From a virus, in the IMG/VR virus record IMGVR_UViG_3300042373_001302, positions 1 to 64,000 of that record: a stretch of 64,000 nt of DNA. One strand, 5' to 3'. A program made the position numbers and the translations under genes. A model generated the notes under the pieces. The model saw nothing but the letters and a program-made list of their open reading frames with translations. It did no database searches and was not told the DNA's origin. Below, piece after piece: positions 15,503 to 62,543 of this stretch (positions are counted from its first letter, which is position 1; each line of letters starts with the position of its first letter).

Positions 15503-18500
15503 ATGGAAAAAGAAAAAGAATTTGATCCTTTTAAAGTATTATCTAAATCTACATATGATCAAAAATTTACATCACCTATGTCTAAAACTACAGAAAGTGG
15601 TTCTGGAGACATGTATGGTTATAATGTTGGATTAGGTTCTTCTAAATATGATAAAAATTTATCTCCCACTACAAGTATTGAGTTTAATGATTTTGTAGAT
15701 TCTTTAGAAGACTATAGATCTAAAAATCAACCCTGGATAGATAAAGCAGGTGCAGGTTTAGCTAGAGTAGGACTTAAAGTAGGTGTAGAATTAGCTAAAA
15801 TGCCAGGATTTATTGGTGGTGCAATAGCAGCTCCATTTGCTGAAGAAGGTCAAGGTTGGGAAACATTTGTTAATAATTCCTGGGTTAAATCATTAAATAA
15901 TTTAAATCAAAAAATTAATAATGAGTATTTACCTGTATATGTTAAAAAAGCTGTAGCAGAAGGTAATTTATGGGCAAATATTACATCTATTGATTTTTGG
16001 GCTACAGATGGTGCTGATGGTATAGGATATATTGTATCTATGATGGCACCAGGAGCTATTTTAAAAGGAATTGGTGTAGGTAATAAATTAGCAAAACTTG
16101 GAGCAAATGAAAAACTTTTAAAAGTTTTAAATAGAGCTGATCCTTTACTTTCTGCACAAAAAGGAGATGTTATTACTGCAACAATTGCAAATACTATGTT
16201 TGAATCTGCTGCTGAAGCAGGTAATGCTATGGAAAATTTTGATAAAACTAAAGATACTTTTATACAATCACAATTATCTAAAGGTTTAACCGCAGAAGAA
16301 GCAGAACAAACATTTACTGAACAAAAAGCTAGATTAGGTAGAGATATATTTATAGCAAATACTGCTATTTTAATGGGTCCCAATGCTTTACAATCAAACA
16401 TGTTATGGGGTCGTACAGTTAATAAAACAGCCACTGAAGTTTTTGATAAAAAAGGTACTTTATTACAAAACGTGATAAATCCTCAAATATATAAAAAAGT
16501 TAGTCGCAGACTTGGAGATATTGGTAAAGCAACAATTTCTGAAGGTTTATGGGAAGAAGGAATGCAGATGAGTGTTGAACATATGTTTACTAATTCAGCT
16601 AAAAAAGGTCAGTTAACTAATAATATGTTTAATGATTTTAATTTAGGAGAATTAGGTGATGCTTATTTAAATACTATCTCGTCTACTGAAGGTCTAAAAG
16701 CAATGTTTTTAGGAGCTTTTTTAGGTGGTGGTATGCAAGCATTTAGTGGAGGTAAACAAGATATTAGAGATAGAAAAGCAACACAATCATTATTAGATGT
16801 AGCACATACATCTATTGATAGTTATTATAAAGCTTTAACTGAAAATGTATATAATGAAGATGGTTCTGTTAATGTAACAAAAGCAAGATCTAAAGTAGCT
16901 GCTTTAAAAAACTTAGAAACTTTAGACGAAATGTATCAAAATGCATTAGCTAAAGGTGATTTTGAAGTTCTTGAAGAATTAAGAGATATTGCAGGTTCTC
17001 AACTTGCAATGGGTTTTATAATGAATGATAAATTAGGACTAGAAGTTTTAAGAAAGCATTTAGAAGAATCTACTCAATTAGAAGAAGTATTACAAAAAGA
17101 ACAAGAGTTAGGTAATAAAGTTTCTAAAAAAGATATTGTAGAGCGTGTAATGTCTAAAGCAACTTTAATGGAAAACGCTTTAAGTAATTTTCAAAAGTTT
17201 GCACCATCATTATATAATCCTACATTTAAAGATGAATCTTTAACTGAAGAAGTTAAACAACAAAAAACACAAGAGTTTAGAAAGGTTTTAGCACAAAATT
17301 ATTTAACTAATAAAGTAGTTAAAGATATTTATAATAAAAAAATTAAAGAACTCGAAAAAGATAAAGCTCAAATATTAGCAGATTTAGGTTATTCATCTAG
17401 TGTCAATTTAGATTTAGATAATTATACTGTTGATATAGAACAAGCAAATAAAGTTGATAAAGATGTTTTAGAAACTTCTGATGAGCGTTTACGTAAAGTA
17501 ACAGAAGATTTAAAAGAATTAAAAGAAGAATTTCAACAAGTTGATAAATTAGATAAATTATTTTGGAATAAAGAAAGAATTCAAAAAGATTTTGATAAAT
17601 ATAACAATCAAGTTAAAAAAGATGAGAAAGCTGTTACACCTGAAAAATTAGAACAATATGATTCAGTATTAGGTGAAATCGCAGAAATAGAATCAATTAA
17701 AGAACTTGAAAGTTATGCTAGAAATCTTAAAGAAGAATATCAGACAAATCCTGTAATACTTGATAAGTTAGCTGAACATAAAGTAGCTTTAGAAACAGCA
17801 TTAGAACTTAAAAAAGCAAAAGAAGAAGCTGATGTAATTCAAGAAGATGAAGAACAATTTGAACAAGATGAAGTTATTGGTACTACTACAGTTAATACTG
17901 ATACTAAAAGTGCTACAGATATAACAATTGTTACAGATTTAGAAACATTACAAAATTCTGAAACTTCAGAAGTAGAAGATACTATTGAAGATCCTAATAA
18001 TTTTTTAGAATTAAAAGAAAATACAAATCCTGAATTTTCAGATAAAAATCAAAGTGCTGCTAGAATTATTAGTACTTATCAAGATACTGGTGAATCAATT
18101 CCAGGATTAGAATCATTTGTAGAATATGAAAAAGAAACACGAAATAAAACAAATGATAAAGTTACATTTAGTTTAGGTGATTTAACACAACAAAAACAAG
18201 ATCAATTAATGAGTTCCATATTAGATAAATTAAAAAATGATGGTACATTAAATGATAAACAAATTGAAATGTTAGAAAATTATTTACTTATTAAAGTTAC
18301 ACTTTCAAATGGTACTAAATCAGCATCATCTTTTATAGATTCAATGTCACATCCTAATCCTGATATAGTAACTAGAGAAACATTACCTTTACGTAAAGCT
18401 ATTATAAAGGCTTTAGTAGACAATCAAGGTAGTTTTGAAGGTATAGAAGGTAAAGTAGATAAACAGTTCACAGGAGTGCTTAAAATAGGTGAGCAAGGTG

Positions 18501-20056
18501 GTAGTATATTAAATCTTGCAGTATTTGAAGGAATGACCGAAAAAGAAAAGATTAATTACTTTAAAAAGAATACCATATATGTAGGTAATAAAGGAATGGT
18601 TAAACATACGGCTACTGATTTACCAGTTCATAATTTAAATCTTAAAGCTAGAAGTAAAGGTGAAGTATTTTTACTTATACCTATGATTAATGGTGAAATG
18701 TTTCCTTTAAAATTAAACACTAATAAATTAAGTGATGAAAAAGCATCAGCTACATTAGATTTAATTATATTACGTTCAAGATTATTAAGTCAAAAACAAG
18801 ATATGACTTTTGATGAATTACAAGAGTATATTACTAATAATGATTTAGGAGCTATTCAAACTGAATTTGATTTTGTTAAACGTGAAGAAGATAATATTGA
18901 TCAAACTTTAGAAAGACTTATTAACTTTATAGTATTTTCTCAAAATACAAATACTAAGACTAGATTAGAATTAAAACCTAATGGTGTTTTATTATTAGGA
19001 GAATTACTTCATAAATTTAATGATAAATTACCTGCATTTGATGGAGATAAAGTAAAACATTATTATTATACTAATGAAATACTTGAAAGTTTATCTGGTG
19101 TACAAAGACAATCATTAATTGATTATTTAAAATATAAAAGACATAATGTATTAATTACTAAAGATGGTAATGCTACATTTAATAATGATGCTTATATTAA
19201 ATATTTATTAGGAACTGAAACAGGTTATTCTGTTTTATCTACTAACGCAATAACTAATGAACCAACATTTCAAGGTTATTCAAATATTTATTTAAGTCAA
19301 TCAGTTACTAATAAAACAGAACCTAAAATTAAAAAAGCTGAAGATACTGATGATACACAAAGTCTTTTAGATAGTCTTAATTATGGTAATATTGTAGAAG
19401 AACCTATAACTACTCAATCTGAAATAGAAGCTAAAAAAGCTGATATAGAAAGAAGATTAGGAATAAAATTACCTGTAAAAAACACTTCTCTACCTGTATC
19501 TTCTAAAACATGGGGAGATAGAAAATCTCTTGCAAATCAATTATCTTCTGAATTAAAAGGAGTAGTTGAAAGAGGTGTATCTATGCAAGAATGGTTAGAT
19601 AAAGGATATGGAAGACAATTAGCTACTTGGACAGACGAAACTATTATTGAGTTTTTAGAAGTAGCTGATATAGAAAAAAGAAGACAAGAAAAGTTAGAAG
19701 CTTATAAATTAAAAAAAGACGGAACTCCTAAAAATGAAGCAGAATTAACCAAAGTATATGCAATAGATGATGTTAGAATTATCAATGCTAAATATGATGC
19801 AGAACTAAAAACATTAGAAACTCAAAATGTTCTTCCTACAGCTAATATTAATCAACCAGTATTAACTACTGAAAGTGAATTAGTTACCAAATTTAATAGT
19901 TTATCAGAAACTCAACAACTTGAAACAATTGAAACTTTAGCTGAAAAACTTAATAAACCTATTGATTCTTTAGTTGGTGAATCATTCATTGAAATGTTTA
20001 AAGAATTAACAAAAGGTGTAGAAAATAATAAAATTATAAAAATATGTGGATTTTAA
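15503..20056 (+). CDS. Giant virion protein with coiled coils, likely ejected with the RNA polymerase
   Basis: A 1,517-residue protein. Residues about 85-110 and 165-195 contain Gly/Ala-rich, membrane-like helices (GGAIAAPFAEEG, GYIVSMMAPGAILKGIGVG) and a third is near 395-420 (LGAFLGGGMQAF). Residues 430-870 are long charged coiled coils; the C-terminal 600 residues are mixed. This architecture is typical of ejected internal virion proteins that form a conduit through the envelope. crAss-like phages encode three neighbouring giant virion proteins including the polymerase, which matches the order here. No catalytic motif was found. The next gene has its own promoter starting right after this stop. 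Confidence 0.6.
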   Translation: MEKEKEFDPFKVLSKSTYDQKFTSPMSKTTESGSGDMYGYNVGLGSSKYDKNLSPTTSIEFNDFVDSLEDYRSKNQPWIDKAGAGLARVGLKVGVELAKMPGFIGGAIAAPFAEEGQGWETFVNNSWVKSLNNLNQKINNEYLPVYVKKAVAEGNLWANITSIDFWATDGADGIGYIVSMMAPGAILKGIGVGNKLAKLGANEKLLKVLNRADPLLSAQKGDVITATIANTMFESAAEAGNAMENFDKTKDTFIQSQLSKGLTAEEAEQTFTEQKARLGRDIFIANTAILMGPNALQSNMLWGRTVNKTATEVFDKKGTLLQNVINPQIYKKVSRRLGDIGKATISEGLWEEGMQMSVEHMFTNSAKKGQLTNNMFNDFNLGELGDAYLNTISSTEGLKAMFLGAFLGGGMQAFSGGKQDIRDRKATQSLLDVAHTSIDSYYKALTENVYNEDGSVNVTKARSKVAALKNLETLDEMYQNALAKGDFEVLEELRDIAGSQLAMGFIMNDKLGLEVLRKHLEESTQLEEVLQKEQELGNKVSKKDIVERVMSKATLMENALSNFQKFAPSLYNPTFKDESLTEEVKQQKTQEFRKVLAQNYLTNKVVKDIYNKKIKELEKDKAQILADLGYSSSVNLDLDNYTVDIEQANKVDKDVLETSDERLRKVTEDLKELKEEFQQVDKLDKLFWNKERIQKDFDKYNNQVKKDEKAVTPEKLEQYDSVLGEIAEIESIKELESYARNLKEEYQTNPVILDKLAEHKVALETALELKKAKEEADVIQEDEEQFEQDEVIGTTTVNTDTKSATDITIVTDLETLQNSETSEVEDTIEDPNNFLELKENTNPEFSDKNQSAARIISTYQDTGESIPGLESFVEYEKETRNKTNDKVTFSLGDLTQQKQDQLMSSILDKLKNDGTLNDKQIEMLENYLLIKVTLSNGTKSASSFIDSMSHPNPDIVTRETLPLRKAIIKALVDNQGSFEGIEGKVDKQFTGVLKIGEQGGSILNLAVFEGMTEKEKINYFKKNTIYVGNKGMVKHTATDLPVHNLNLKARSKGEVFLLIPMINGEMFPLKLNTNKLSDEKASATLDLIILRSRLLSQKQDMTFDELQEYITNNDLGAIQTEFDFVKREEDNIDQTLERLINFIVFSQNTNTKTRLELKPNGVLLLGELLHKFNDKLPAFDGDKVKHYYYTNEILESLSGVQRQSLIDYLKYKRHNVLITKDGNATFNNDAYIKYLLGTETGYSVLSTNAITNEPTFQGYSNIYLSQSVTNKTEPKIKKAEDTDDTQSLLDSLNYGNIVEEPITTQSEIEAKKADIERRLGIKLPVKNTSLPVSSKTWGDRKSLANQLSSELKGVVERGVSMQEWLDKGYGRQLATWTDETIIEFLEVADIEKRRQEKLEAYKLKKDGTPKNEAELTKVYAIDDVRIINAKYDAELKTLETQNVLPTANINQPVLTTESELVTKFNSLSETQQLETIETLAEKLNKPIDSLVGESFIEMFKELTKGVENNKIIKICGF

Positions 20057-20103: not shown

Positions 20104-23100
20104 ATGAAATGTAAAAGAATAGCTTACACAGGAAAAGCTGAATCAATATTATTTGATACTATTTATGATAAAATAGCAAATCAAAATGAAAAAGTAGCAG
20201 AAGAACTGTTTGCATATTTTGGTAAAGAATCATTTATTGAAGATTTTGGAGATTATCTTCAAGATTATAAAAATAATAAATATGATTCTAACAGAATTGA
20301 TGAGAATGGTGAACCTGCTTTATTTTATGATGACACAGCTAAAAAACATTATTATTTAAATAAAAATAATGAAAAAGTATATTTTCCTTTAGTTGATAGA
20401 GGTTTACGTGCTATTTATAGTTATAAACAAATTGCTAAAATTAAATCAAGATTAGCTTTAAATTATTTTAAAAATTCTGGATTAGATTTTAATAATATTG
20501 AATTTAGTGAAGGTGAAAGTTTACCAAATTTAAGAAATTTTATTATTAAAGAAATTACAGATAAAGCTACAGAACTTAAAGAACAAGGTGGAGTGAGTTT
20601 ACTTAAAGCACGAAGCCTTGAACGTTCTTTAAAATATGTTGATGAATTAGTTGAAAATGTAGAAAACTTTTTTAGAGAGTTATCTATTGAAATTATAGAA
20701 AATGAAGAAGATACTTCTTTTTTAGAAGAAGAAGGTAGAGATCCATCATTTAATCAACATTCTGCAGAAAGAAATACTAAAGATAATATTAGTGCTAATG
20801 TTAAACTTAGATTAAGTTTATTAGAAGACCCTAATACCTTAGATCCTATATGGAATGAACCTACTTTTTTAGATAGAGATATGGTTTATTCTACATTACA
20901 AAGTGTATTGTCTAATGAAATTGCTTTACCTAGTGAAGATTTGTTTGAAAATTATAAAACATATTTAAGTAGAGTTCAAGATAAAAAACCATACTTAAAA
21001 GGATTATTAGAATATTTAAATAAAGTTACATCTGAAAATCAAAAAAGTGAATTTGTTCAAGCATTTAATCTTATTAAAAATAATCATATAGTAACTCAAT
21101 TTGAAATTACTAAACGTGTTGTTAATGAAGAAACTGGTGAAACAGAAATGTTTGTAGAACATAGAAGTTTACCTATTTCAGATACAGGTTCTAAGATTAC
21201 AGTAGTTAAAGATGCTTGGGATATTAATTTTCAAAATAATTTTTTAACTGCTGATAATACATTAAAAACAGGTTCAATTGAAAGATTGAATAAAGCTTCT
21301 AATGTATTAAAACAATATTTTAAAGATAGTGAGTTATTAACAGAAGATAATGTAGAAGGATTTGAAATTTTAGCAAATAAATCAATTAAATTTTTAGAAA
21401 CATTAGGTGTTAATTTAACTAAAGAGGGATTTGATAATTTTATAGACAATTTTGGTAAAGATATTACATTTAATGATAGATTAAAAAACTTAAAAACTTT
21501 AATTAATCAAACAGAATATGTTGTAAATGGTATTAAAACTAAATATAGTTATAAATCAGAAGATTACTCTAGTTTTATAGGATTGTCTCAAACACTTACA
21601 AAGTTAGCTTCATCTGAAGCTTTCTTTTTAAATGAAGGTTCTGATGCTACAATTGTTACATCTTCTTCTACTGGTAAATCAAAACAAAAATGGATTTATT
21701 CATATCCTTCTTATGTATCAACAAAAGTTAAACAATGGAAAAAAAATCCTAAATTATTATTAGATTTGTATAAATCTGGTAATTATCAATTAGGTTCTTT
21801 CTATATGGGTGTTTTAACAGGTACTATTAATAATAAAGGTGAAAAATTAAATCTTGAAGAAAAAGATCAATTAGAACTATCTAAGAAGATTTTAGAAGGA
21901 TTAGATGTTGCTATTATGAATCAAATGTCTTCTGATAGTGAGTACAAAGAAACTACCAATTTATCTTATAAAGATTATTTAGTAGATTATGTTAATAAAG
22001 TACTTAAAGAAGATGATTTTATTAGAACAACAACTCCTGCAGATAAAACAACAGAATTACAAATTAAAACAGGAATTAGATTAAATTCATTTAATGGTTT
22101 AAATCAAGATAAAAAAATTAATATTAGACCTAGAACATTAGACATATTTTTTAACTATTTTAGTTCAGAATATAATAGAATGTTAGAAGCTAATCAAGAT
22201 GTTATTAATGCTGAAACTAATCCTGAAAAATATAAATTAACACCTCATTATCATTATCAATATGAAATTAAAGATAAAAATGGTAATAAAATTATAAATC
22301 CAAATCCTTATGATAAAAGTGGTAATGCTTTCAAATCACAATATTTTGAAAAGTTGTCACCAAATTCAAAAGGTCAAACTAATTTAGAAGACCAAATTAC
22401 TAATTTATTATATGATAATAAAGGTAATTTTAACTTTCAGAAATTAACAAGAGAAAGTAGTGAAGAATTAAATAGTTTATTTAATCAATATATTACTACT
22501 AACTTAAGATCTCGTATTGAACAAACAATTAGTTATTTACAAGCTAATGAAGTATTTATTAGAAATAAAGAAGGTATAATTGTACCTAATAAAATAGATT
22601 CTAAAATATTAACAAGTGGAGCATATAGAAACGTATCAGCAGCTCAAAAAGCAATTGCGTTTGCTACTGACTTTATAATTAACGGTTTAGTTTCTAATGT
22701 TGAATATTCTAAAATGTTTACAGGTGATGTAGCATTTTATAAGAATATGGTAGATTATAAAAAACGTGTACCTGCATCATATACTGATGGTTTGCAATTA
22801 AGAATAACTCAAGGTAATGAATTTTTTAATATTGCTACTATTGAAAGTGTATATCGTAAATCACCTTTTTATGACTTACTTGTTGAAAGTTTAAGTGAAG
22901 AAGGAGCTAGACCTTATGAAAATATTAACTCTGCTGATGCTCAAGCATGGATTACACCTAAACGTTGGAAATTTTTAATTCAAGCATTAGGTAAATGGAC
23001 TAAAGTTCATGATGAAGTTTATAAAAAAATGATTTCTAATAATATTGAACAATATACTGAAAAAGAATTAAAAGTTGCAGCACAACCTTTAAAAGGTGTG

Positions 23101-26100
23101 TATTTCTTTAGAGATAATAGTGGTAAACCTACATATCTTAAATATTCACAAGCAGTATTAACTAAATCATTAATACAAGATTCTGATTTAGAAAAAGTAT
23201 TCAATCAGATGGAAGTTGATAATGTTGATGAATTGATTACTTTTGATGGTGTTAAAGTTGGAGCAATTGAACCAACTAAAATACATGATGAAAATGGTAA
23301 TGTTGTTCAAGATATTAAATATAATGTACAAACACTATCTAATTATGGTTGGAAACTTCAACAAGATTTACCAACTAAAACATATAAAGATACTGATGTA
23401 GGTTCTCAGATTCAAAAAAATATATTTGCAGGATTATTACATTTACAAAACGATACTAATTTTGAATTAGATGGTCAATTAGTAAGTGGTAAATATGTTA
23501 AAGATGAAATTGTTAAAACTATTACAGGTTTAACTAATCAAGGTTTAGAATCTCTTAAAAAAGAATTTAAAATTGATGATGATTTTAGAATTGGAGATAT
23601 TTCAGGATTTTATAATGCATTAATTTCTGAATTACAAAAACGTGGTGGTTCTGAAAATGTTATTAAAGCATTACAATCAGAAGTTACAATTGTAGGTATT
23701 CCTCAATCATCTGAAAAGTTATTTAATATGTTTGCTTCAATTATGAATAGTAGACTTGTTAAAATTAAAACTAATGGTGGTTCTTTTATTCAAATGAGTA
23801 ACTTTGGTTTAAATAAATCTGAAGCTGATTCTAAAGGTGTTATATGGCATCCTGAAGCATTATCTACAGTACATGAACCACATATATATATTCATCCTGA
23901 AACATTAAGACCAACAGTAAGACCTGGTGGTGTTTTAATATCAGGAAGTTTTATAGCTAAATATATTCCTAATTGGAAAAGTTATGATGAAGTAGAATTA
24001 TTTGTAGGTAAAGATGGTAAACCACCAATTATAGATAAAAAAATACAAGATAACATTATAGGTTATCGTATTCCTAATCAGGGTTTAGCTTCTAATGATG
24101 CTTTACAAATTGTAGGTATATTACCTGAAACATCTGGAGATACTATTGTAGCTTATACAGGTATTACTACTAAAACTGGTTCAGATTTTGACGTTGATAA
24201 AATGTATATAATGTTTCCATCTTATAATAAAAAAGACAAACAACTTATATATAAAGAAAATGATTTAGGTAACAGATTAATAGAATTATATAAATCTGTG
24301 TTAACACATCCTGAAGTTTATAAATCTGTAATGAAACCTATTGATATTGAATTTATTAAAAATGAAATTAATACTTTATTTCCAGAAACAGATTCTGTAT
24401 TTATGAGTCATTTTGACCCAGAAGTAGATTTAAAACTTAGATATTATTTTTTAGGTGGTAAAGCTGGTGTTGGTCAAGAAGCTAATGCTTTAGTTGATAT
24501 TAGTAGAGAAGGTAAACTTTCTTTAAATGATATTAAATATATAACTTGGGGTCATCATAACACTGAAGGTGAAAGTGCTTTTGATTTTGAATATTCTGAA
24601 GAATTATCTGATAAAGACTTAGATTATTATGTTAAACAAATAGTTAAAAGTACTGCTACTCAAAAAGAAATTGATGAATTTAAAAATGAATTACGTAAAG
24701 TAAAAGTAGGTGATTCATTAACAGCAATTCTTAATGCGTTTGTGGATATTGCAAAAGACCCATATATATCTAAAGGTAACTGGACAACAGCTACAACTAA
24801 TATAGGTAATCTTTTATTACGTATTGGTGCACATCCTTTATATGTTGTTAACTTTTTAGCTAATCCTGTAATTGCAGAATATATTGAGTATTTAAAATCT
24901 AAAGAAGGTATTACTAATACTGAAAAAGATTTAGGTTCATTAGATAGTTTTAAAAAGTTTAAAAAACATATTGTTAAAACAGCTTTAAATGCTTCTACAC
25001 CTGAAAGTTCAAATACTTTATTGGGTAATTTATATTTAGATTATTATAAAAATTTTAATATTGATTGGCAAAAAGAAAAGCTTTCTCAAGATCTTAAAAA
25101 TAATTTTGTAACTAAAGAACAATATGATAAAGAAATAATTAAATTAGATAATTCATTTAATACTTCAAAAACAAAAGTTAAAAAACTTTTAAAAGTTTCA
25201 GATGAAGAAATTACAAATATTATTAATTTAATGAATCAACAACATTCTAAAGTATTTTTACATGAAAAATATAGTGTATTTAATAAAGATAGATTTGATT
25301 TAGAATATTTTAGAAATCAAGTAACTACAACTAAACCAGATTCTGAGTTTAGAATGAATATTTTAAATACTTTTAAAGAATTAAATGAGTTTAGTAAGAA
25401 TGTTAGAGAAAATGTAATGGTTTCTAAACTAGATACTGATGGTATGGGTAAAGATCATAATAAATTATTCACAATATTTAATATGATACAAATTATTAAT
25501 GATAAAGTTGAAAATAATGTACCAGGAGCTATTAAAGGCTTTAATAGTAAATTTGAAGGTACAACACTAGAAGCATATTATAATAGCTTAAAATGGGTTA
25601 AAAACGTTGTAGAAAGCAATCCTTTATTATTTCCTACAGGTACAATTCAAACTAGACAACAATTTAATGAAATTTCTCAAGATGTCTATAGTAGTTTATT
25701 AACTAATGAAGAAATGAGTAATGATTTAAGTAGAGAATATAATTCTTATTTAATGGAACAATTCTTTAATATTACTAAAGAAGAAAAGTTAGATTTAATT
25801 GATAATTTACCTAATAGATTTAAAGAATTTAAAGAAGCTAATAAAGATAAGTATTTTATACTTGATGAATTAACATTAGATATTCCTAAAAGTAAAAAAC
25901 GTAAAGCTATTATTTCTTTAACTAATAGAAAGAAATCTAAAGCATATGAAAAAATATTTACAGATTCTTGGAGAGATTTATTTATAGATAATCCTACATT
26001 AGCAGAAGATTTAGTTAAATATTCTTTTGTTACTTCAGGATTTAAAATGAATGCAACACAATTTTATACATACATACCATTTGAATATTTTGTTCAAAAT

Positions 26101-28086
26101 CAAATTAATAGTAAAGTTAATGATATTATAAATAATAACACATTTGACTTTTTAGATAAGTTTTACTTAAATAAATTAGAAAATAAAAAATATGTTAAAA
26201 AAGTATTTGATAATAATTTAAATTTAGCAATTGGTACTAATGTTGTTAAAAAAGACAATGGTTTTAAATTAGAAAAAGGTTCTAAGTATTATGTAGAATT
26301 AGAAGTTAAAATTCCAGATAATGCTCCTGCTGATTTTGTACCAAAACTTAAATATTATAAATTGGTTGGTTTTAATAAAAATGAAGACGGATTATATGTT
26401 AGAATTAATAATACACCATTATCTTTAAATAAACGTAAATTAACAGACTATAGTGATAATATATTTGATGATGTTATTAATGAAGAAACACAATACATTA
26501 AATCACAAGTAATATTTGATAGAAATATGAATAAAATAAATGATATTGTTGATGATGTTATTGAAACTACAGAAGTTCAACCTCAAGTTCAACCTCAATC
26601 TAATAAAATATTATTTAAAGAAGAACTAACATTAGGATATAAAAATAGAACTATTAAAAATGCTAGTGCAGATGCTACAATAGCAATAGCAATAGATTTT
26701 AATAGTGCTGGAGAAAGATTAACTAAATCATCTGTATTAAGTCAAAATAAAAAATATATTTCTTTAGATGCTAGTAATTTAACTGTTACACAAGAAAGAG
26801 TTGATAAAATAGTAGAACAATTAAACTCTGCTAAAGAATATACTTCTGAAAATATAACTTCTTTAAAACCAAATGAAGTATTTGTATTTGGTAGTAATGC
26901 AGAAGGAGTTCATGGAAAAGGTGCTGCATTATTAGCTAAAACTAATTTTGGAGCTAAACAAAGTCAATCAGAAGGATTACAAGGACAATCTTATGCAGTT
27001 ATTACAAAGAAAAACTGGAGAGTTGAAAAATCTTCTACATTAGAAGAAATTGGTAAAGGACTACAAGATATGTTACTATTTGCTAAACAAAATCCAGACA
27101 AGAAATTTTTAGTTACTAAACTTGGTAGTTCATTAGCAGGATATTCAGTAGAAGAAATTAAAGAATTATTTGAGAAATTAAAAAATATTATTCCAAATAA
27201 TGTTATTTTACCTAAAGAATATGAAATTAGAGGAATAACTTTAAATATTGCTGGTAATGGTATTTATACTATGAAAGGTAAATATACTCAGCAGCAAGTT
27301 GATGATTTTACATATAATTTATTAAAAGCTGTTATTGAATCTCCAAATCTTAAAACTAAAATAGAAAGTATTAGAAGTGGTGGTCAAACAGGTTTTGATG
27401 AAGCAGGTACAAAAGCAGGTATTAAATTAGGTTTACCAACATTAACTTTAGCTCCTAAAGGTTGGACTTTTAGAGATATAACAGGTAAAGATATTTCTAA
27501 TGAACAACAGTTTAAAGCTAGATTTGGTGAAGTAATTACTCAACAACCTCAATTAGTTGAAAATATTTATAATCAATTAGGAAATAAAACAGTTTCTAAT
27601 AATGTAGAAATATTAGATTGGAAAGACTTAAAAGAATATGATGCACCAATTGAAAAAGATCTTGAAGGAAATTTAGAATTTATTATTTCTACCAGAATAC
27701 CTAAAGTTTTTAATCATTTTGGAAATCCTTTTAGTCATGATCCAGCAGGTAAAACTCAAGGATTAATTAAAACAGAAACTATAAAAGAAGCTGTTGAAAA
27801 ATATATTGATTGGGTTATTAATTCAAAAGATGATAGAGCTGAATGGATTAGAAAACAAATTCAATCAGGTAAATTAAAAGGTCTACCTATTTTGTACTAT
27901 AAAGAATTAAATCAACCTTCTCACGCTACAGCTTTAGATTATTTAATAAATAAACATAATTGGAATATTGAAACAAATAATCAACCATCTCAATTATCTT
28001 TATTTCCAGAATTATCTGAACAAGAATTTAATAACTTAACTGAAGAAGAACGAGCTACAATTTTGTGGCAAAAAAATAATTGTTAA
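20104..28086 (+). CDS. crAss-like virion RNA polymerase with C-terminal macro-like, SLOG/MoCo-like and DUF4326-like domains
   Basis: A 2,660-residue protein. The motif KTGSDFDVDKMYIMF (Asp1361, Asp1363, Asp1365) matches the DFDID-type metal-binding loop of the single-chain RNA polymerases of crAss-like phages such as phi14:2 gp66, which are packaged, ejected and transcribe early genes. Upstream basic and Gly-rich segments (about 1000-1350) fit the two double-psi beta-barrel region. After about residue 2230 come three small domains not expected in a polymerase. The first is macro-like (EVFVFGSN at 2258, then GKGAALLAK and GLQGQSYAV). The second is SLOG/molybdenum-carrier-like (RSGGQTGFDEAG, 2424-2435). 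The third is DUF4326-like (GNPF at 2540, SHATALDYL at 2606). The polymerase assignment is strong on motif and context; the roles of the tail domains are open. Confidence 0.85.
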   Translation: MKCKRIAYTGKAESILFDTIYDKIANQNEKVAEELFAYFGKESFIEDFGDYLQDYKNNKYDSNRIDENGEPALFYDDTAKKHYYLNKNNEKVYFPLVDRGLRAIYSYKQIAKIKSRLALNYFKNSGLDFNNIEFSEGESLPNLRNFIIKEITDKATELKEQGGVSLLKARSLERSLKYVDELVENVENFFRELSIEIIENEEDTSFLEEEGRDPSFNQHSAERNTKDNISANVKLRLSLLEDPNTLDPIWNEPTFLDRDMVYSTLQSVLSNEIALPSEDLFENYKTYLSRVQDKKPYLKGLLEYLNKVTSENQKSEFVQAFNLIKNNHIVTQFEITKRVVNEETGETEMFVEHRSLPISDTGSKITVVKDAWDINFQNNFLTADNTLKTGSIERLNKASNVLKQYFKDSELLTEDNVEGFEILANKSIKFLETLGVNLTKEGFDNFIDNFGKDITFNDRLKNLKTLINQTEYVVNGIKTKYSYKSEDYSSFIGLSQTLTKLASSEAFFLNEGSDATIVTSSSTGKSKQKWIYSYPSYVSTKVKQWKKNPKLLLDLYKSGNYQLGSFYMGVLTGTINNKGEKLNLEEKDQLELSKKILEGLDVAIMNQMSSDSEYKETTNLSYKDYLVDYVNKVLKEDDFIRTTTPADKTTELQIKTGIRLNSFNGLNQDKKINIRPRTLDIFFNYFSSEYNRMLEANQDVINAETNPEKYKLTPHYHYQYEIKDKNGNKIINPNPYDKSGNAFKSQYFEKLSPNSKGQTNLEDQITNLLYDNKGNFNFQKLTRESSEELNSLFNQYITTNLRSRIEQTISYLQANEVFIRNKEGIIVPNKIDSKILTSGAYRNVSAAQKAIAFATDFIINGLVSNVEYSKMFTGDVAFYKNMVDYKKRVPASYTDGLQLRITQGNEFFNIATIESVYRKSPFYDLLVESLSEEGARPYENINSADAQAWITPKRWKFLIQALGKWTKVHDEVYKKMISNNIEQYTEKELKVAAQPLKGVYFFRDNSGKPTYLKYSQAVLTKSLIQDSDLEKVFNQMEVDNVDELITFDGVKVGAIEPTKIHDENGNVVQDIKYNVQTLSNYGWKLQQDLPTKTYKDTDVGSQIQKNIFAGLLHLQNDTNFELDGQLVSGKYVKDEIVKTITGLTNQGLESLKKEFKIDDDFRIGDISGFYNALISELQKRGGSENVIKALQSEVTIVGIPQSSEKLFNMFASIMNSRLVKIKTNGGSFIQMSNFGLNKSEADSKGVIWHPEALSTVHEPHIYIHPETLRPTVRPGGVLISGSFIAKYIPNWKSYDEVELFVGKDGKPPIIDKKIQDNIIGYRIPNQGLASNDALQIVGILPETSGDTIVAYTGITTKTGSDFDVDKMYIMFPSYNKKDKQLIYKENDLGNRLIELYKSVLTHPEVYKSVMKPIDIEFIKNEINTLFPETDSVFMSHFDPEVDLKLRYYFLGGKAGVGQEANALVDISREGKLSLNDIKYITWGHHNTEGESAFDFEYSEELSDKDLDYYVKQIVKSTATQKEIDEFKNELRKVKVGDSLTAILNAFVDIAKDPYISKGNWTTATTNIGNLLLRIGAHPLYVVNFLANPVIAEYIEYLKSKEGITNTEKDLGSLDSFKKFKKHIVKTALNASTPESSNTLLGNLYLDYYKNFNIDWQKEKLSQDLKNNFVTKEQYDKEIIKLDNSFNTSKTKVKKLLKVSDEEITNIINLMNQQHSKVFLHEKYSVFNKDRFDLEYFRNQVTTTKPDSEFRMNILNTFKELNEFSKNVRENVMVSKLDTDGMGKDHNKLFTIFNMIQIINDKVENNVPGAIKGFNSKFEGTTLEAYYNSLKWVKNVVESNPLLFPTGTIQTRQQFNEISQDVYSSLLTNEEMSNDLSREYNSYLMEQFFNITKEEKLDLIDNLPNRFKEFKEANKDKYFILDELTLDIPKSKKRKAIISLTNRKKSKAYEKIFTDSWRDLFIDNPTLAEDLVKYSFVTSGFKMNATQFYTYIPFEYFVQNQINSKVNDIINNNTFDFLDKFYLNKLENKKYVKKVFDNNLNLAIGTNVVKKDNGFKLEKGSKYYVELEVKIPDNAPADFVPKLKYYKLVGFNKNEDGLYVRINNTPLSLNKRKLTDYSDNIFDDVINEETQYIKSQVIFDRNMNKINDIVDDVIETTEVQPQVQPQSNKILFKEELTLGYKNRTIKNASADATIAIAIDFNSAGERLTKSSVLSQNKKYISLDASNLTVTQERVDKIVEQLNSAKEYTSENITSLKPNEVFVFGSNAEGVHGKGAALLAKTNFGAKQSQSEGLQGQSYAVITKKNWRVEKSSTLEEIGKGLQDMLLFAKQNPDKKFLVTKLGSSLAGYSVEEIKELFEKLKNIIPNNVILPKEYEIRGITLNIAGNGIYTMKGKYTQQQVDDFTYNLLKAVIESPNLKTKIESIRSGGQTGFDEAGTKAGIKLGLPTLTLAPKGWTFRDITGKDISNEQQFKARFGEVITQQPQLVENIYNQLGNKTVSNNVEILDWKDLKEYDAPIEKDLEGNLEFIISTRIPKVFNHFGNPFSHDPAGKTQGLIKTETIKEAVEKYIDWVINSKDDRAEWIRKQIQSGKLKGLPILYYKELNQPSHATALDYLINKHNWNIETNNQPSQLSLFPELSEQEFNNLTEEERATILWQKNNC

Positions 28087-28087: not shown

Positions 28088-31000
28088 ATGAATTGTATAA
28101 ACATAAACGACTCAAAGTATAAAGAGTTATTAGAACAAACAAAATTAAATCCATTAATCCTGAAGGCTAGAATTTCTATCTTTCAGGATAAAAATGGTTT
28201 AGAATCATTTCCTAAATTAGAAGATGTTATTCAATCTAATGAAGTTAATCAAAGTTTAAAATCTGTTGATATATTATCTTCTGATAAAGCAAAACAAATT
28301 TTTGAAAAAGGTAAAAAGTCTAATTGGGATTTAAATAAAATTTTAACAGAGCTGCAGATCCCTAAAGATCAAAAACAATTAATATTGGATTTAGATAAAA
28401 CTAATAGAGAAGAAATCATTACAGACCTATTAGCTAAATATAGTTATACTATTGAGATTAATACTGCTAAAGAACAAATTAAAACTGGTACAAAAAAAGT
28501 TCAAGGTTCTCCTATTAAGTATTATTCAAAATCTGAAAATAGATATTATAGAGATACTGAAGAATTAGGATGGATTAGTTCTGATGAAAATAATAAAAAT
28601 CAAGAAGTAGATGTTCAAACACCAGAAGATTTAGAACCAATTGAATTTGATACTTATAATATTGATACTTTTTCAGAATTAGAAACTAAACATTACTCTA
28701 ACCTAACAGTTCCAGGTGGTACTAATTATACAGAAAATGAAATATCTACTCCATTAATTACACCTAGTATTAAAGGTCATGCTCAATTTAGTACTGATAA
28801 AGGTATAGGTTGGTTTAGAAGTGACGAGCAGCAATCTAATAATGACTTAGAAGAACAAAGAGAAGAAGAAGAATATCAGATAGCTAATAATCCAAACTAT
28901 GTAAAAGGAAGTATTCAATTTGAAAAGGGAGAGGGCTCTAAAACTCGTAGAATACTAGAAGTACAATCAGATTTATTTCAGAAGGGTAGAGATAAAGATT
29001 ATTTGCCTAAATATCCTTTTAAAAGCAATGATAATAAATTTCTTCAACTTCTAAACAAAGATAATAATTGGGTAACATTCTTTGTTAAATCTATTATACA
29101 AGATAGTGTTAAGAAAGGATATGAAAAAATATTATTTCCTTCTGGTAATACAGCTAGTAAAGTGGAAGGTCATACTACTTTAGAAGAGTTTAAGAAACAG
29201 AAAGAAGATAGGTTAAAAGAGCTTGAGGATAAAGTTAATAAAGGTAGATATGTACTTACTGATAATACTGGGTTTCCAATGGGTATAGCTCCAATAGATT
29301 CTGACATCAATGTATTAAAAAGTAATAATCCAACATTAAAAATTGAAAAAGAGTCTTTGACGCAAAAAGAATTAGATGATACAAATAATGAAATAAACCA
29401 ACTTAAACAAGAACTTGAAAGAGTAGAAGGACCAGAAGGATTTGGTGCATTAAAACCTATCTATAACTTCTATGAGAACACTGTAAAGAATGTTCTTAAT
29501 AAACAATATGGTAAAGAAAATGTAAAACAAGTTACTGATGAATATGGTAATACTTGGAATGAATTAACTTTAGAAGAAAGTAGAGATACTTCAACTATTT
29601 TATTTAATAAAAAAGATTTAAATGATTTTGTTGGAGATAATTCAAAACCTTTTTTTCCAGAAAGTACAACAAATCAACCTCAAGTAAATAATAGATTTCA
29701 AATAAATAAAGAATTATTATTTAATGATAAAAATATTAATAATTCTTTTAAAGCTAAAGATGTATTACAAAATATAATTAATTCTAATTTAGAATTTTCA
29801 GATGCTGGTAATAATTTAGTATTTAAAGCAATGAATGTTTTAAATCGTTCTAATAGTAGAGTTAAAGTTATTAGTCAAGAACAATTTGATAAAATGACTG
29901 AAAATTCTGAAGGGAACGGAACTGCTGTAATGGCTTATGAATCAGAATTAAATGTTATTTATACGACAGAAAATTCTTTAAGTATTTTTACAAAAGAACA
30001 AATATTAGAATCATTTTTACATGAAGTTGCTCACAATTTAAGTATTAAAGCAATTATTAATCCTGTAACTTTTGAAGAAATACAATTTAATGAATTAATT
30101 AAAAAAGCATTTGAACAATATAAATATTTAGGTAAAAATTTAAAAGGTTCCAAAAGCTATGGTTTTACAAATGAAAAAGAATTTGTAGCAGAATTATATT
30201 CTAATGAAGAATTTCAAAATGAAATTAAATCATTAGATAAAAACTTTTGGCAACAATTTAAAGACGCTATTAGAAGATTATTTGGATTAACTAAATCATT
30301 ACAAAATAATGAATTAATTAATAGTATTTTATTAATTGAAAATGTTGAAAAATTTATTGAAACTAGTCAACAATCTTTAGACGGTTTAGCTAGAAATGAT
30401 TATTCAAACTCTTTTAATAACATAATGTTTAAAAAAATAGAACAACCTAAAGAAATTGAATTAGATACTTTAGATAAACAATTAAATTATACTATTGAAA
30501 AAGCGTTAGATAAAATTGATGCAATTATTCGTAGAACCAAAAAATCTAAAAATTCTAAAAACAAACAAGATAATGAAGCTTTTGTAAAATCTTTTACTGA
30601 ATTATTTAAAGAAATTGAAACTTTAGAAAATACTAATAAATGGCAAGCTGTTAATGCATACGTTACTTCATTTTCAAAAACAGTATTTCATTTAAATCAA
30701 ATGTTAAAAACTAAATTATATAATAAAGATACTGAAACATTTAATAAAGATATAAGTTCTGAAGAAATGTTAGACTTATCTTATAGATATGAAGAATATC
30801 TTACTGCGTATGATTTATTAGAAGATATTAAAAAGTTATTACAAACAAGTGAAACTGATGAATTTGTTACTAAACAAAATCAGATAGAAATAAATAAAAT
30901 TAAAGATATTTTAGCTAATTTAACTAAAGATCATAATAGTTTAACTGGAATAATATTAAATATTAAAAAAGCACATGCTGTAAAAATGATGTCTGAAGCT

Positions 31001-33613
31001 GATTTAAATACAGAAGTTGTTGCTAAATGGAGAAATAAATTATTTCAAGAACATACTGATTTAAAAATTACAAATGAAACCAAAGAAGCTTATTTTGGTA
31101 GAATGATTGAAGGTAAATATAAAGATGAATATAATAAAGCTTTAGTTGCTAATGCTCGTAAAATAGTTAATGATCCATCTTTTGATATTGAAAGTGTTAC
31201 TCGTTCTGTTGTAGATATTTTAAACACCAATTCACCATTATTAAACATGATGTCTAATGTAATTGGTAAAATGAGAGATTCTATTATTTCCGCAGCAAGA
31301 ACTAAAAATTTTGAAATAGATAAAGTTTATAAAAAATATTCTGCTGAAAAAGGTCAAAATAAACAATCTCAAATGTATAAAAATCTTGTAGAATTATCTA
31401 AATCAGATGATAGATATTATTTACATGGAGAATATTCTACAACATATTTAGATTCATTTAATAGTTTACAACCTGTATTTAAAGCACGTAAAGAGTTAGT
31501 AGCTTTAAAATTAGCAGAAGGTTTAACTAATTCACAAATTAAAAAATTACCTGAGTATAAACTTTTAAATAAACAAATAGCAAATTGGTTTAAAGCAAAC
31601 ACTATTAAAGTTGATGGTATTACTTATCCAAATCCTAAATATAAAAATAAAGAATTAACAGGTATTGAAAAAGAAACATTAGATTATTTTATTTATGAAA
31701 CTGAAAAAAATGATGATTCTTATAATGGTACAGCATCTTTAATAACTTTAATACCTGGAGCTACATTTTATAAATTACCTTCAGTTACTAAAAGTGATTT
31801 AGAACGTACATTAGAAGGTGATATTAAAGGTCAGTTTGTAGATAAATGGAAAGATTTAAATGAAGTACGTGTTGATGATGTTAGTTATGGTGAAGCAATT
31901 AATAATAAAAATGAAGAATTACGTACTGTAAGAGTTCATTATAGAGGTAAAATAGAATCTAAAAATCAATCATTAGATTTATTTACAGTTTATCGTAAAG
32001 AAGCTTTTAATGCAATTAATTATGCTGAAAAGAAAGAAAATGAATATAAACTTAAATTGTTTGTAGATATTGCTTCTAGTAAACAATATAAGAAACGTTC
32101 AAAATCAGGAGGATGGGCTCAAAATGTATTTGCAACTAAACAACCAGGTGTTATTGTAGAAGGTGAATTTAGTGAAGAATTAAAACGTATTAAAGGTTTA
32201 CTTGAAAGTACTGCTTATGATATTTTATCATATAATGGACAAAAAGTATTAGGTACTAATATTGAAGCAAATAAATTATCATCATTAATTAATGGTACAG
32301 CAGCAAGTATTGCAATGACAATGAACTTAGGTTCTGGTGTAGTCAACGTAATGAACGGTGTTACACAAATGTTTATTGAATCTGTTGGTGGTAGAAATTT
32401 TAAAAAAGCAGATTTATTAAAAGCTGAAGCTAATTATAGTAAAAACTTAATGAATATTTTAGCTGATTTAAATGAACCTGTTAAAAAATCATTTCATAAT
32501 CAAATGTTAGAAATGTTTGATGTATTTGGAGGTTTTGATGTTTCTACTCAAGAATTTTTAAGAAATTCATATGCTAAGAAATTAATTTCCAAACAACAAA
32601 TGAATATGTTAAATGAAATGGGTGAACATATGATGAACTCAGTTTTAACAGAAGTTATGTTAAGAGGAATTAAAGTAATGAATGAACAGCGTCAATTTAT
32701 TGATAAATCAGGAAATGTTGTAGAAGAATCAAAAGCTGCTTCATTATTTGATATGTTATCTTTAAATAAAGATGGTGTTTTAGAAATGGATAGTAAAGTT
32801 GTTTATACTCTTAAAAATTTAGATTCTAAATATCATGAAAGTGGTAAATATCATATTAATTATGTTATTAAGAAAAAAGCTCATGATATATTTGGTGTTT
32901 ATGATCCATTAATGAAAGCTGAAATAGCTAAACATTGGTGGGGTAAAACAGTTTTAATGTTTAAGAACTTCTTTTTATCAGGACTTAAATACAGATATCA
33001 AGGTATTAGTAAATCTTTAAAGAAAAAAGAAGATTTAACTGATGATGATATAGTATTTAATAACGCTGAACAGGAGTTCACAGAAGGTACTTATGTTACT
33101 TTTATTAGATTTGTACGTAATGTTGTTTTTCCTGCATTAAAAGGGCTACAATTAGCTCATATGAGTGATGGTTATAATAAGTTAACAGACTATGAAAAAG
33201 CTAATTTAAGAAAAACTACATTAGAAGTAGGTTTAACTATGGTATTGTTACCGATGTTAGGTTACTTATTAGCATCTCTTGGTGGAGATGATGATGATAA
33301 ACCATATTTTGCATTATATGTATTTAGAAGATTAGAGTCAGAACTTTCACAATATAGAAATCCTATAGAGTTAAATAGAATGATTCAAAATCCTGTAGCA
33401 GCTAATAGATTTATTCAAAATTCATTAAATGCTTTAGGTGAAATAATTACACCACTTAATTTTAATCCTGGAAATAATGAATATTTGTTTGATTATTTAA
33501 GTGAAGATTCTAAAGGTAAAAATAAAGTAGTTAAATCTATTAAGAAAATTACACCATTTTATGCTCAATTTCAAAAACCATATAGAGAAATGCATAATCT
33601 TATAAATAAATAA
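28088..33613 (+). CDS. Giant polyvalent virion protein with zincin metallopeptidase motif
   Basis: A 1,841-residue protein starting one base after the polymerase stop. Residues about 230-500 contain an LEVQSD segment and an ILFPSGNTASKVEG segment like the EIQSD-type domain of large polyvalent phage proteins. Residues 645-649 read HEVAH (HExxH zincin motif), with a downstream NEKEFVAELYSNEEF that offers the third Glu ligand near residue 697. Long helical regions follow (770-1000, 1120-1330). Hydrophobic segments lie at about 1415-1445 and 1715-1735 (LTMVLLPMLGYLLASLGG followed by four Asp). It is probably packaged and ejected with the polymerase; the peptidase could act on a host or phage protein. 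It is the last gene of the + block. Confidence 0.68.
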   Translation: MNCININDSKYKELLEQTKLNPLILKARISIFQDKNGLESFPKLEDVIQSNEVNQSLKSVDILSSDKAKQIFEKGKKSNWDLNKILTELQIPKDQKQLILDLDKTNREEIITDLLAKYSYTIEINTAKEQIKTGTKKVQGSPIKYYSKSENRYYRDTEELGWISSDENNKNQEVDVQTPEDLEPIEFDTYNIDTFSELETKHYSNLTVPGGTNYTENEISTPLITPSIKGHAQFSTDKGIGWFRSDEQQSNNDLEEQREEEEYQIANNPNYVKGSIQFEKGEGSKTRRILEVQSDLFQKGRDKDYLPKYPFKSNDNKFLQLLNKDNNWVTFFVKSIIQDSVKKGYEKILFPSGNTASKVEGHTTLEEFKKQKEDRLKELEDKVNKGRYVLTDNTGFPMGIAPIDSDINVLKSNNPTLKIEKESLTQKELDDTNNEINQLKQELERVEGPEGFGALKPIYNFYENTVKNVLNKQYGKENVKQVTDEYGNTWNELTLEESRDTSTILFNKKDLNDFVGDNSKPFFPESTTNQPQVNNRFQINKELLFNDKNINNSFKAKDVLQNIINSNLEFSDAGNNLVFKAMNVLNRSNSRVKVISQEQFDKMTENSEGNGTAVMAYESELNVIYTTENSLSIFTKEQILESFLHEVAHNLSIKAIINPVTFEEIQFNELIKKAFEQYKYLGKNLKGSKSYGFTNEKEFVAELYSNEEFQNEIKSLDKNFWQQFKDAIRRLFGLTKSLQNNELINSILLIENVEKFIETSQQSLDGLARNDYSNSFNNIMFKKIEQPKEIELDTLDKQLNYTIEKALDKIDAIIRRTKKSKNSKNKQDNEAFVKSFTELFKEIETLENTNKWQAVNAYVTSFSKTVFHLNQMLKTKLYNKDTETFNKDISSEEMLDLSYRYEEYLTAYDLLEDIKKLLQTSETDEFVTKQNQIEINKIKDILANLTKDHNSLTGIILNIKKAHAVKMMSEADLNTEVVAKWRNKLFQEHTDLKITNETKEAYFGRMIEGKYKDEYNKALVANARKIVNDPSFDIESVTRSVVDILNTNSPLLNMMSNVIGKMRDSIISAARTKNFEIDKVYKKYSAEKGQNKQSQMYKNLVELSKSDDRYYLHGEYSTTYLDSFNSLQPVFKARKELVALKLAEGLTNSQIKKLPEYKLLNKQIANWFKANTIKVDGITYPNPKYKNKELTGIEKETLDYFIYETEKNDDSYNGTASLITLIPGATFYKLPSVTKSDLERTLEGDIKGQFVDKWKDLNEVRVDDVSYGEAINNKNEELRTVRVHYRGKIESKNQSLDLFTVYRKEAFNAINYAEKKENEYKLKLFVDIASSKQYKKRSKSGGWAQNVFATKQPGVIVEGEFSEELKRIKGLLESTAYDILSYNGQKVLGTNIEANKLSSLINGTAASIAMTMNLGSGVVNVMNGVTQMFIESVGGRNFKKADLLKAEANYSKNLMNILADLNEPVKKSFHNQMLEMFDVFGGFDVSTQEFLRNSYAKKLISKQQMNMLNEMGEHMMNSVLTEVMLRGIKVMNEQRQFIDKSGNVVEESKAASLFDMLSLNKDGVLEMDSKVVYTLKNLDSKYHESGKYHINYVIKKKAHDIFGVYDPLMKAEIAKHWWGKTVLMFKNFFLSGLKYRYQGISKSLKKKEDLTDDDIVFNNAEQEFTEGTYVTFIRFVRNVVFPALKGLQLAHMSDGYNKLTDYEKANLRKTTLEVGLTMVLLPMLGYLLASLGGDDDDKPYFALYVFRRLESELSQYRNPIELNRMIQNPVAANRFIQNSLNALGEIITPLNFNPGNNEYLFDYLSEDSKGKNKVVKSIKKITPFYAQFQKPYREMHNLINK

Positions 33614-46871: not shown

Positions 46872-46873
46872 TT

Positions 46874-61403: not shown

Positions 61404-61572
61404 TTAAATTTTCATTTATAGATAGAATAAAGTCTTCTTCTATTTCAAGTAATACTTCACCTTCACCTTTACATAAACTACAAGTTCTGTATTCAAAACC
61501 TGCAGTTTGTTTAGCTTCCATTAATTGTTGTGCTCCTAAACATTTAGGACATGTTATTAATTTGTTATCCAT
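61387..61572 (-). CDS. Small zinc-finger protein, DnaJ-central-domain-like
   Basis: A 61-residue protein with CPKCLGAQQ and CSLCKGEGEV, i.e. two C-x2-C-x-G motifs as in half of the DnaJ cysteine-rich domain, then an acidic C-terminus. It probably binds one zinc ion. It overlaps the PRPP-synthetase-like gene by 16 bases and the membrane protein gene by 17. Such small proteins are common in phages; function unknown. Confidence 0.7.
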   Translation of the reverse strand: MDNKLITCPKCLGAQQLMEAKQTAGFEYRTCSLCKGEGEVLLEIEEDFILSINENLIDDYE

Positions 61573-62543
61573 ATGTAAAATACATTTAATTGTTTAACAT
61601 TTGTTTTTTCACCATATTCATCATCAGCTACATCTCTATAACTATTAGTACAGTAAATACCATCAAAATATTTATTAAGTTCTTTAAAACCTTTAGAAAA
61701 AATTCCATGAGTTACTATAAGATAGATTTTACCAGCATGAGGATCATTTTGCATAGTAATTTTTAATTCTTTAGCAATATTAATAAAAGTAGCTCCACCA
61801 TCACATATATCATCAATTATGATATAATCTTTTCTAAGATGTTTATGTTCTAAAGGTACAACACATTTAGTTAATTTACCATTTTCATCACGAGATTTAC
61901 TACAAGTAATAATATCCCCAGTATAACCAATTTGTTCAGCTATTTTAAAGATTTTCTTACTTGCACCTGCATCTGGTGATACTAAAATACAATTATCTAT
62001 TGTATTTTGAATTAATAATTTATCATAAGGTGTTTTAGTTCCTAACCTATAATTCCAATCTAAATTTTCAAAAGTAAATTTAACTAATTCTAGATTAGAT
62101 TCTTTTTTAAAGTTATTTAAGCAAGCTTCTAATACATCTGAATGAGGATCTAATACAGTTACAGATTCAAAATTAAGACTATTTATAATAGGACAAATAA
62201 CATCTTTAAGATAATTATTAGAACCTTCTTCAAACTTTCTATCACTTCTACTTCCTAAGAAATATGGTGTATAAAGATGAATTTCTTTAACTCCTAATTC
62301 ACGTAATGATTTAGTAGCACAAACGATTAATTCCAAATCTTTAAAATTGTTTAATCTTGATTTAATTGTAACAATATTACCAATGTTTAAAAAAATTCCT
62401 ATAAATTTAGTACCGTGACCATTATCAGATGTATGATATTTTTTTGTACCTAATATTTTAACTTGTTGCTGACCATCAGGAAATTTAAAAACCTCATACT
62501 TAATTTCTGAGGTTTCAATATCTGTTAAATTTAATATTTTCAT
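61557..62543 (-). CDS. PRPP-synthetase-like protein (Prs or ADPR-pyrophosphate synthetase Adps)
   Basis: A 328-residue phosphoribosyl-pyrophosphate-synthetase-fold protein: FPDGQQQVKI near the start, LYTPYFLGSRSDRKF (ATP/flexible loop region), VTVLDPHSD, LVSPDAGASKK and the ribose-5-phosphate loop YIIIDDICDGGATF. It starts two bases after the NAMPT-like gene. Classical Prs makes PRPP, which NAMPT needs. In the phage NARP1 pathway the same two folds act as Adps, which pyrophosphorylates ADP-ribose, and Namat, which joins it with nicotinamide to remake NAD+. Sequence by eye cannot separate these. Confidence 0.82.
   Translation of the reverse strand: MKILNLTDIETSEIKYEVFKFPDGQQQVKILGTKKYHTSDNGHGTKFIGIFLNIGNIVTIKSRLNNFKDLELIVCATKSLRELGVKEIHLYTPYFLGSRSDRKFEEGSNNYLKDVICPIINSLNFESVTVLDPHSDVLEACLNNFKKESNLELVKFTFENLDWNYRLGTKTPYDKLLIQNTIDNCILVSPDAGASKKIFKIAEQIGYTGDIITCSKSRDENGKLTKCVVPLEHKHLRKDYIIIDDICDGGATFINIAKELKITMQNDPHAGKIYLIVTHGIFSKGFKELNKYFDGIYCTNSYRDVADDEYGEKTNVKQLNVFYIWITN

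Follow-up and report, generated by a model that had tools for sequence, protein, structure and literature searches.

We investigated a window of 64,000 nucleotides, positions 1 to 64,000 of IMG/VR virus record IMGVR_UViG_3300042373_001302, with a focus on its giant crAss-like virion RNA polymerase (vRNAP). The C-terminal tail of this polymerase contains a SLOG domain with a macro domain inserted within it, followed by a DUF4326-like domain. Relatives, including cultured phages, carry different members of this domain set at the same or other places, which makes the polymerase resemble a vehicle that delivers interchangeable counter-defense parts. We lean towards reading the tail domains as virion-delivered cargo that binds or reverses ADP-ribose-based immune signals or adducts. 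See Table 1 for the coordinates of all features.

The original prediction, made from the DNA letters alone, had placed macro-like, SLOG-like, and DUF4326-like domains in series at the end of the polymerase, and had named structure prediction and a survey of other crAss-like polymerases as checks. Its three motif blocks (EVFVFGSN, SGGQTGFDEAG, and GNPF) all lie in the frame of open reading frame (ORF) 20104-28086, and the profiles and folds described below bear out the three domain identities. The serial order did not hold. We rejected three domains in series because the SLOG halves flank the macro domain, and the actual order is SLOG{macro}-DUF4326. The module also starts ~230 bases upstream of the interval first proposed (26840-28086).

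The macro segment appears as a gap when SLOG rows are aligned, and the insertion point is the SLOG loop preceding the NIAGNGIY strand. Intact versions of the SLOG domain are found in relatives: the vRNAP tail of locus L002 has one that is 78% identical, and a free-standing gene (L003) encodes one that is 82% identical. Residues 2378-2469 match the SLOG family phrog_10774 with an E-value of 1.5e-23, and the Pfam cpYpsA model (PF12694) scores 27.9 bits on the tail against a gathering score of 26.2, which places it in the SLOG superfamily; the uninterrupted L002 copy scores 42.2 bits. The GG-x-TG nucleotide loop is kept, as GGQTG is invariant in the seven SLOG members compared. The element order is not that of the cpYpsA family in the strict sense. 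The SLOG halves are swapped both in a profile comparison with PDB 3imk and relative to the PF12694 profile, so we class the domain, like the other crAss copies, as a permuted SLOG relative rather than a strict cpYpsA. A sequence search of the tail against solved structures gave no meaningful match. In the crAss-like vRNAP tail of another relative (L068, 7449-9800), the loop that holds the macro domain in the window is instead occupied by an RNase H domain, which divides SLOG in two. That tail is TGA-recoded, with TGA coding for tryptophan.

The macro-like family phrog_2072 matches residues 2244-2373 with an E-value of 1.8e-30. We predicted folds for the macro and DUF4326-like domains singly, each as a separate model. 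The macro model, built by AlphaFold2 from 78 sequences, has a predicted local distance difference test score (pLDDT) of 93.6 and matches the macro fold, as the original prediction expected. Foldseek places the DarG macrodomain first (E-value of 3.1e-4), and VIA gives Z scores of 12.4 for TARG1 and 12.0 for DarG; the top 50 VIA rows are all macrodomains, including designed proteins on the macro fold. As judged from this model, the domain has a macro fold. Since Z differences below 1 count as ties, the TARG1/DarG subclass is a lead rather than a placement. Pfam macro models found no match in nine members of the family at E-values up to 1, and we class the domain as a macro fold of clade phrog_2072 rather than a member of the Pfam Macro sequence family.

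Three putative ligand-site residues of the macro domain, N2265, H2270, and T2301, are invariant in all 78 family members, and K2302 is lysine in 61 of the 78. A weak profile alignment (E-value of 0.17) pairs K2302 with Lys84 of TARG1 and A2345 with Asp125. The catalytic lysine is required in both TARG1 (Lys84) and DarG (Lys80) (PMC5179494, PMC8501950). The model resembles the hydrolases TARG1 and DarG more than it does a pure binder. We use TARG1-like as a working class only, and do not call the domain a TARG1, because Asp125 is not kept. The macro relatives found mostly occur as phage genes of their own, free-standing at 47 of 80 loci.

The third domain is DUF4326-like by fold and remote sequence similarity. 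The window block scores 13.8 bits against PF14216 (E-value of 0.094), below the gathering score of 25, and we therefore name it DUF4326-like only. PF14216 gives weak matches in 11 of 37 relatives of the domain, the best with an E-value of 3.7e-4. The model (pLDDT of 86.3) agrees with the original prediction in that a fold search of BFVD finds annotated DUF4326 proteins: DUF4326 of a Pseudomonas phage is matched with an E-value of 7.7e-4 and a probability of 1.00, and most other named matches are DUF4326. Against PDB folds the model has no match (best E-value of 2.2), and PF14216 finds none in this phage's own genome. The family looks nearly confined to crAss-like phage polymerases, as domain and core share one ORF in 42 of 51 viral loci and bacterial genomes yielded a single contig, itself vRNAP-like. 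In a contig (L307) of a metagenome-assembled genome labelled Neisseriaceae, a macro domain is nested in the DUF4326-like domain of a vRNAP-like ORF; the contig probably comes from a phage and was binned with bacterial sequence.

The ORF that carries these domains matches the RNA polymerase of phage phi14:2 (PDB 6vr4) with an E-value of 1.2e-207 over residues 2-1378 (phmmer). Its DxDxD motif is intact (GSDFDVDKM), with D1361, D1363, and D1365 invariant across five polymerases. This homology identifies the first 2100 residues as a crAss-like virion RNA polymerase. Tandem mass spectrometry detected gp65 to gp68 of phi14:2 in virions, according to the annotation of NC_021806, and mass spectrometry located gp47, gp49, and gp50 of crAss001 in virions as well (PMC10172136). 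Since these homologs occur in virions, we infer that the polymerase is packaged in the virion of this phage. The earlier claim that the phage delivers an ADP-ribose-handling module with its polymerase is thus upheld as far as the fusion to a virion polymerase and the virion location of homologs are concerned, and in this phage the packaging is likely.

Next, we asked where else the domains occur. We gathered the best 80 loci with crAss-like vRNAPs through a polymerase alignment and marked domains with local hidden Markov models (HMMs). At least one of SLOG, macro, DUF4326-like, and NADAR is carried by 19 of 77 loci, a share inflated by about ten low-scoring carriers that perhaps entered the best 80 via similarity of the module; without them it is 9 of 67. 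Scans with each domain singly gave many further cases. On the polymerases of relatives, the NADAR family PF08719 was matched in 15 of 15 members (best E-value of 3.7e-17), and the phage-type catalytic histidine of the final strand, whose role has been described (PMC11125620), is invariant in all 15. There are about 20 arrangements of the four domains with the polymerase core. Within single ORFs, the orders include core-DUF, core-macro, core-SLOG, core-DUF-SLOG, core-NADAR-SLOG, core-SLOG-NADAR, core-DUF-macro-NADAR, core-NADAR-macro-SLOG, and SLOG-macro-core. The domains thus recur in changing combinations in other crAss-like polymerases, where the original prediction had suggested looking for the same fusion. 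The commonest other domains in the tails scanned are DUF7831 (4), SF1 helicase (3), and RNase H (2), and tail content appears enriched for one biochemical theme.

The domains have been placed on these polymerases recurrently and independently. We built a FastTree tree from 88 polymerase cores, 26 of which carry any domain; on it, presence of any domain requires at least 18 changes (200 shuffles had a mean of 22.7, with two as low). The macro domain alone requires 10 changes for 11 carriers against a shuffle mean of 10.5, and so is no more clustered than shuffled labels. Because the tree has long branches and its rows are not a random sample, these counts are a sign of lability and not rates. 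None of the domains is present in L016, the row closest to the window (62% core identity).

Cultured phages show the same variation on a finer scale. In relatives of phiCrAss001, one N-terminal polymerase site, after residue 60, is variable between flanks that are about 97% identical. Over the part compared, the polymerase protein of the metagenomic cr112_1 shares about 98% identity with that of crAss001, and after residue 60 the former has 157 residues including a macro domain and the latter 11 residues. PhiCrAssBcn1-3, 20, and 25 have a cpYpsA-related SLOG at this site (Pfam E-value of 2.5e-7), PhiCrAssBcn4-12 have an unrelated insert, and crAss001, tikkala, and some crAssBcn isolates have no insert. 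The crAssBcn isolates grow on B. intestinalis DSM 108646. In the paper that describes them, the RNA polymerase is said to vary only slightly and the domains go unmentioned (PMC10354031). In PhiCrAssBcn4 (L304, 1501-2213), the insert at the SLOG/macro site is about 115 residues long, and a Pfam search with it gave no match.

The favored reading, that of a virion-delivered cargo, would work as follows. The capsid would hold the polymerase, which would be ejected into the host before the DNA, and the module would travel with it and be active before any phage gene expression. The macro domain would bind, and probably hydrolyze, ADP-ribose linkages; the SLOG domain would bind, and perhaps cleave, a nucleotide such as cyclic ADP-ribose; and the likely targets of the DUF4326-like domain would be the phosphate or ribose ends of these compounds. 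In combination, the domains may blunt host immunity based on NAD+-derived signals or on ADP-ribosylation of nucleic acid or protein, and parts would be swapped among phages because hosts differ in their ADP-ribose-based systems. Packaging of the polymerase protein and the chemistry of DarG, TARG1, and NADAR are known from homologs; the ligand, the activity, and the counter-defense role of the tail module are inferred. Iyer and colleagues predicted such a role for Macro, NADAR, SLOG, and DUF4326 domains of phages generally: these would counter ADP-ribose derivatives and often be packaged (PMC9503650).

Several observations weigh against this reading. None of the fused domains has a known activity, ligand, or defense phenotype. 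The position of TARG1 Asp125 is alanine in 54, asparagine in 21, serine in 3, and aspartate in none of the macro family members. As the aspartate is never kept, hydrolysis may be slow or absent, and the macro domain could be a binder. The domains are not essential, because 58 of the 77 vRNAPs lack SLOG, macro, DUF4326-like, and NADAR, and polymerase tails carry other cargo too, namely helicase, RNase H, and DUF7831. Furthermore, the CrAssBcn phages were reported to replicate alike on their laboratory host (PMC10354031), and therefore there is no sign of a benefit of the domains on that host.

A broader version is possible, and we put it forward only tentatively. The crAss-like vRNAP might be a general chassis for exchangeable enzymes that remove ADP-ribose from the incoming genome and from transcripts (macro from thymine, NADAR from guanine) as well as from soluble signals. 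Host systems resembling DarTG or Thoeris would then set which part is carried, down to the alleles among isolates on one host strain.

We also considered a role in support of the polymerase's own work, in transcription or template maintenance, rather than in the removal of soluble signals: the domains could, for instance, strip ADP-ribose from the DNA template or from RNA being made, or process RNA ends capped with NAD. The macro fold is nearest to TARG1 and DarG, which strip ADP-ribose off thymidine in DNA (PMC5179494, PMC8501950), and NADAR strips it off guanine (PMC11543638). Such a template-directed role is attractive because macro and NADAR, both of which reverse DNA ADP-ribosylation in DarTG (PMC11543638), sit on an RNA polymerase, and RNase H and helicase domains are found on such tails as well. 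However, SLOG and DUF4326 have no known action on nucleic-acid adducts, the many free-standing macro genes (47/80 loci) show that the family does not need a polymerase tether, and macro subtypes whose Z scores differ by about 1 count as tied. We consider this role unlikely.

It is quite improbable that the domains are bulky appendages that aid packing, ejection order, or assembly and have degenerate ligand sites. The loss of Asp125 and the position of the modules upstream of the conserved C-terminal cysteine end would fit such a structural role, but the putative ligand-site residues are invariant (T2301, N2265, and H2270 in 78/78, the SLOG GGQTG, and the NADAR histidine in 15/15), near-identical isolates manage without the domains, and packing does not explain why unrelated folds of one biochemical theme interchange. 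We give very little credence to a function-free insertion of mobile phage domains into permissive loops of a fast-evolving giant protein, soon to be lost again: it fits the numerous gains and losses on the tree, the patchy presence among close isolates, and the acceptance by one SLOG loop of a macro domain (window) or RNase H (L068) and by the DUF4326-like domain of a macro (L307), but the domains are open and full-length with conserved functional residues, and their single theme is enriched over the next commonest tail domains (DUF7831 with 4, SF1 helicase with 3, RNase H with 2).

The polymerase with its tail module differs in several ways from the closest known systems. The gp66 protein of phi14:2 (PDB 6vr4) is homologous over the whole polymerase with about 40% core identity and lies in the same gene order with gp65 and gp67; however, it has 2180 residues, ends where the window's module begins, and lacks SLOG, macro, and DUF4326. 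Gp50 of phiCrAss001 and its Kehishuvirus relatives belong to the same polymerase family and are known from virions (PMC10172136). Relatives have SLOG or macro at one site, but that site is N-terminal and holds a single domain or none, and the reference phage has none. The fold of the macro domain matches DarG and TARG1 best (Z scores of 12.0-12.4), and its lysine aligns with the catalytic lysine of TARG1, but identity is only about 20%, Asp125 is replaced by alanine, and there is no DarT partner. The phage NAD+ and ADP-ribose domains of Iyer and colleagues (PMC9503650, PMC7824862) are of the same types, with mutual fusions of SLOG, Macro, NADAR, and DUF4326 and predicted packaging. Their viral versions are typically stand-alone outside RNA-virus polyproteins, and crAss-like phages are unmentioned, whereas here the carrier is a vRNAP and the domains are nested.

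Previous work has already described these domain types, the fusions among them, and their packaging. Phages usually produce their ADP-ribose-acting proteins once they have entered the cell, or are predicted to package them as proteins in their own right. Here, such domains are built into the transcription-starting enzyme of a dominant gut phage group and swapped between close relatives. Our literature search, which did not cover the figures of earlier papers, found no exchangeable vRNAP parts, nested domains, or allelic series, and a search for crAss-like phages with a macro domain or ADP-ribose found none. Some GenBank records name the giant polymerase protein DprA-like. For this reason, and because figures of earlier papers were not covered, we do not claim priority. 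If true, the cargo reading would explain in part why the giant polymerases are so large and change so rapidly, and would predict that crAss-like phages are under pressure from ADP-ribose-based immunity as they enter the host. At one site, and on one host strain, the Kehishuvirus isolates carry SLOG, a different insert, or no insert, which makes the question testable in laboratory phages already at hand.

The original prediction had also pointed to an NAD+ synthesis pair at the far end of the window and had tied it to the tail in an NAD-centered counter-defense. As judged by motif and identity, the pair is probably NARP1, the route from ADP-ribose to NAD+. The motif GSYTYQYNTRD of the Namat candidate fits the published signature GSX-Phi-X-Phi-X-Phi-TRD (PMC12774641) exactly, and the protein is 50% identical over 99% of its length to the characterized SPbetaL1 Namat. 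The Adps candidate has a weak Pfam phosphoribosyl synthetase match (E-value of 9.8e-5, below the cut-off), which does not separate Adps from phosphoribosyl pyrophosphate (PRPP) synthetase. The link to the tail was unsupported when tested on 37 long contigs: Namat was found in five, which are five of the 25 without tail domains and none of the 12 with them (p = 0.15). As these Namat-positive contigs include no carriers, the presence of NARP1 alongside the tail module in the window may be a coincidence. Kolpuevirus frurule has both Namat and tail domains. The pairing is made plausible by the precedent of RyDEP, in which a signal-cleaving enzyme can feed NARP1 (PMC13232231). There, a phage joins an enzyme for an ADP-ribose signal with NARP1 so that the product goes to NAD+, and both kinds of part are present here. 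In RyDEP, however, an RyR-domain protein lies beside the NARP1 genes, whereas here the domains are on the polymerase, ~33 kb from NARP1.

Table 1. Features of the window, with position, strand, and the evidence for each
Feature	Coordinates	Strand	Basis
SLOG (cpYpsA-related) first half, residues 2171-2241	26614..26826	+	PF12694 profile positions 46-114; SLOG HMM positions 1-77
Macro domain nested in SLOG, residues about 2247-2373	26842..27222	+	phrog_2072; AlphaFold2; Foldseek; VIA
T2301-K2302 of macro domain	27004..27009	+	profile alignment; family counts
SLOG second half, residues 2377-2474, NIAGNGIY and GGQTGFDEAG motifs	27232..27525	+	phrog_10774; SLOG HMM positions 50-172
DUF4326-like domain, residues 2500-2620	27601..27963	+	PF14216 in relatives; model; BFVD fold match
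C-terminal tail ERATILWQKNNC with end cysteine common to most vRNAPs	28045..28086	+	ORF-end count
vRNAP ORF, 2660 aa	20104..28086	+	phmmer to PDB 6vr4; DFDVD active-site motif
vRNAP core, residues about 641-2039, basis of tree	22024..26220	+	core HMM
phi14:2 gp67 homolog	15503..20056	+	BLASTP E 1e-11; NC_021806 annotation
phi14:2 gp65 homolog (gp65 is an RNAP-associated virion protein)	28088..33613	+	BLASTP E 8e-108; NC_021806 annotation
Adps candidate (PRPP-synthetase-like)	61557..62543	-	adjoins Namat gene; tblastn to phage PRPP synthetases
Namat candidate of NARP1, runs past window, 537 aa in full record	62546..64000	-	motif and identity

The ends of the polymerase ORFs have features of their own. 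A cysteine lies within the last four residues of 68 of 87 vRNAP-core ORFs (L002-L095), compared with 139 of 1489 other ORFs, and this conserved end is downstream of the variable tail modules. Many vRNAP-core ORFs start with M-x-C or M-x-x-C. In L016 and L041, the core is divided between two ORFs, and the gap of about 0.9 kb, close to the active site, is likely an intron or intein region. The neighboring gp65 homolog has several hundred extra N-terminal residues relative to phi14:2 gp65 and an LHEVAHN metallopeptidase-like motif.

Elsewhere in the window, a run of genes at 45066-52717 contains Amidoligase_2, glutamine amidotransferase, COOH-NH2 ligase, two Peptidase C26, ATP-grasp, and gamma-glutamyl cyclotransferase genes, and resembles an amide-bond or glutamyl modification cluster. 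A second GGACT gene is located at 60463-60849.

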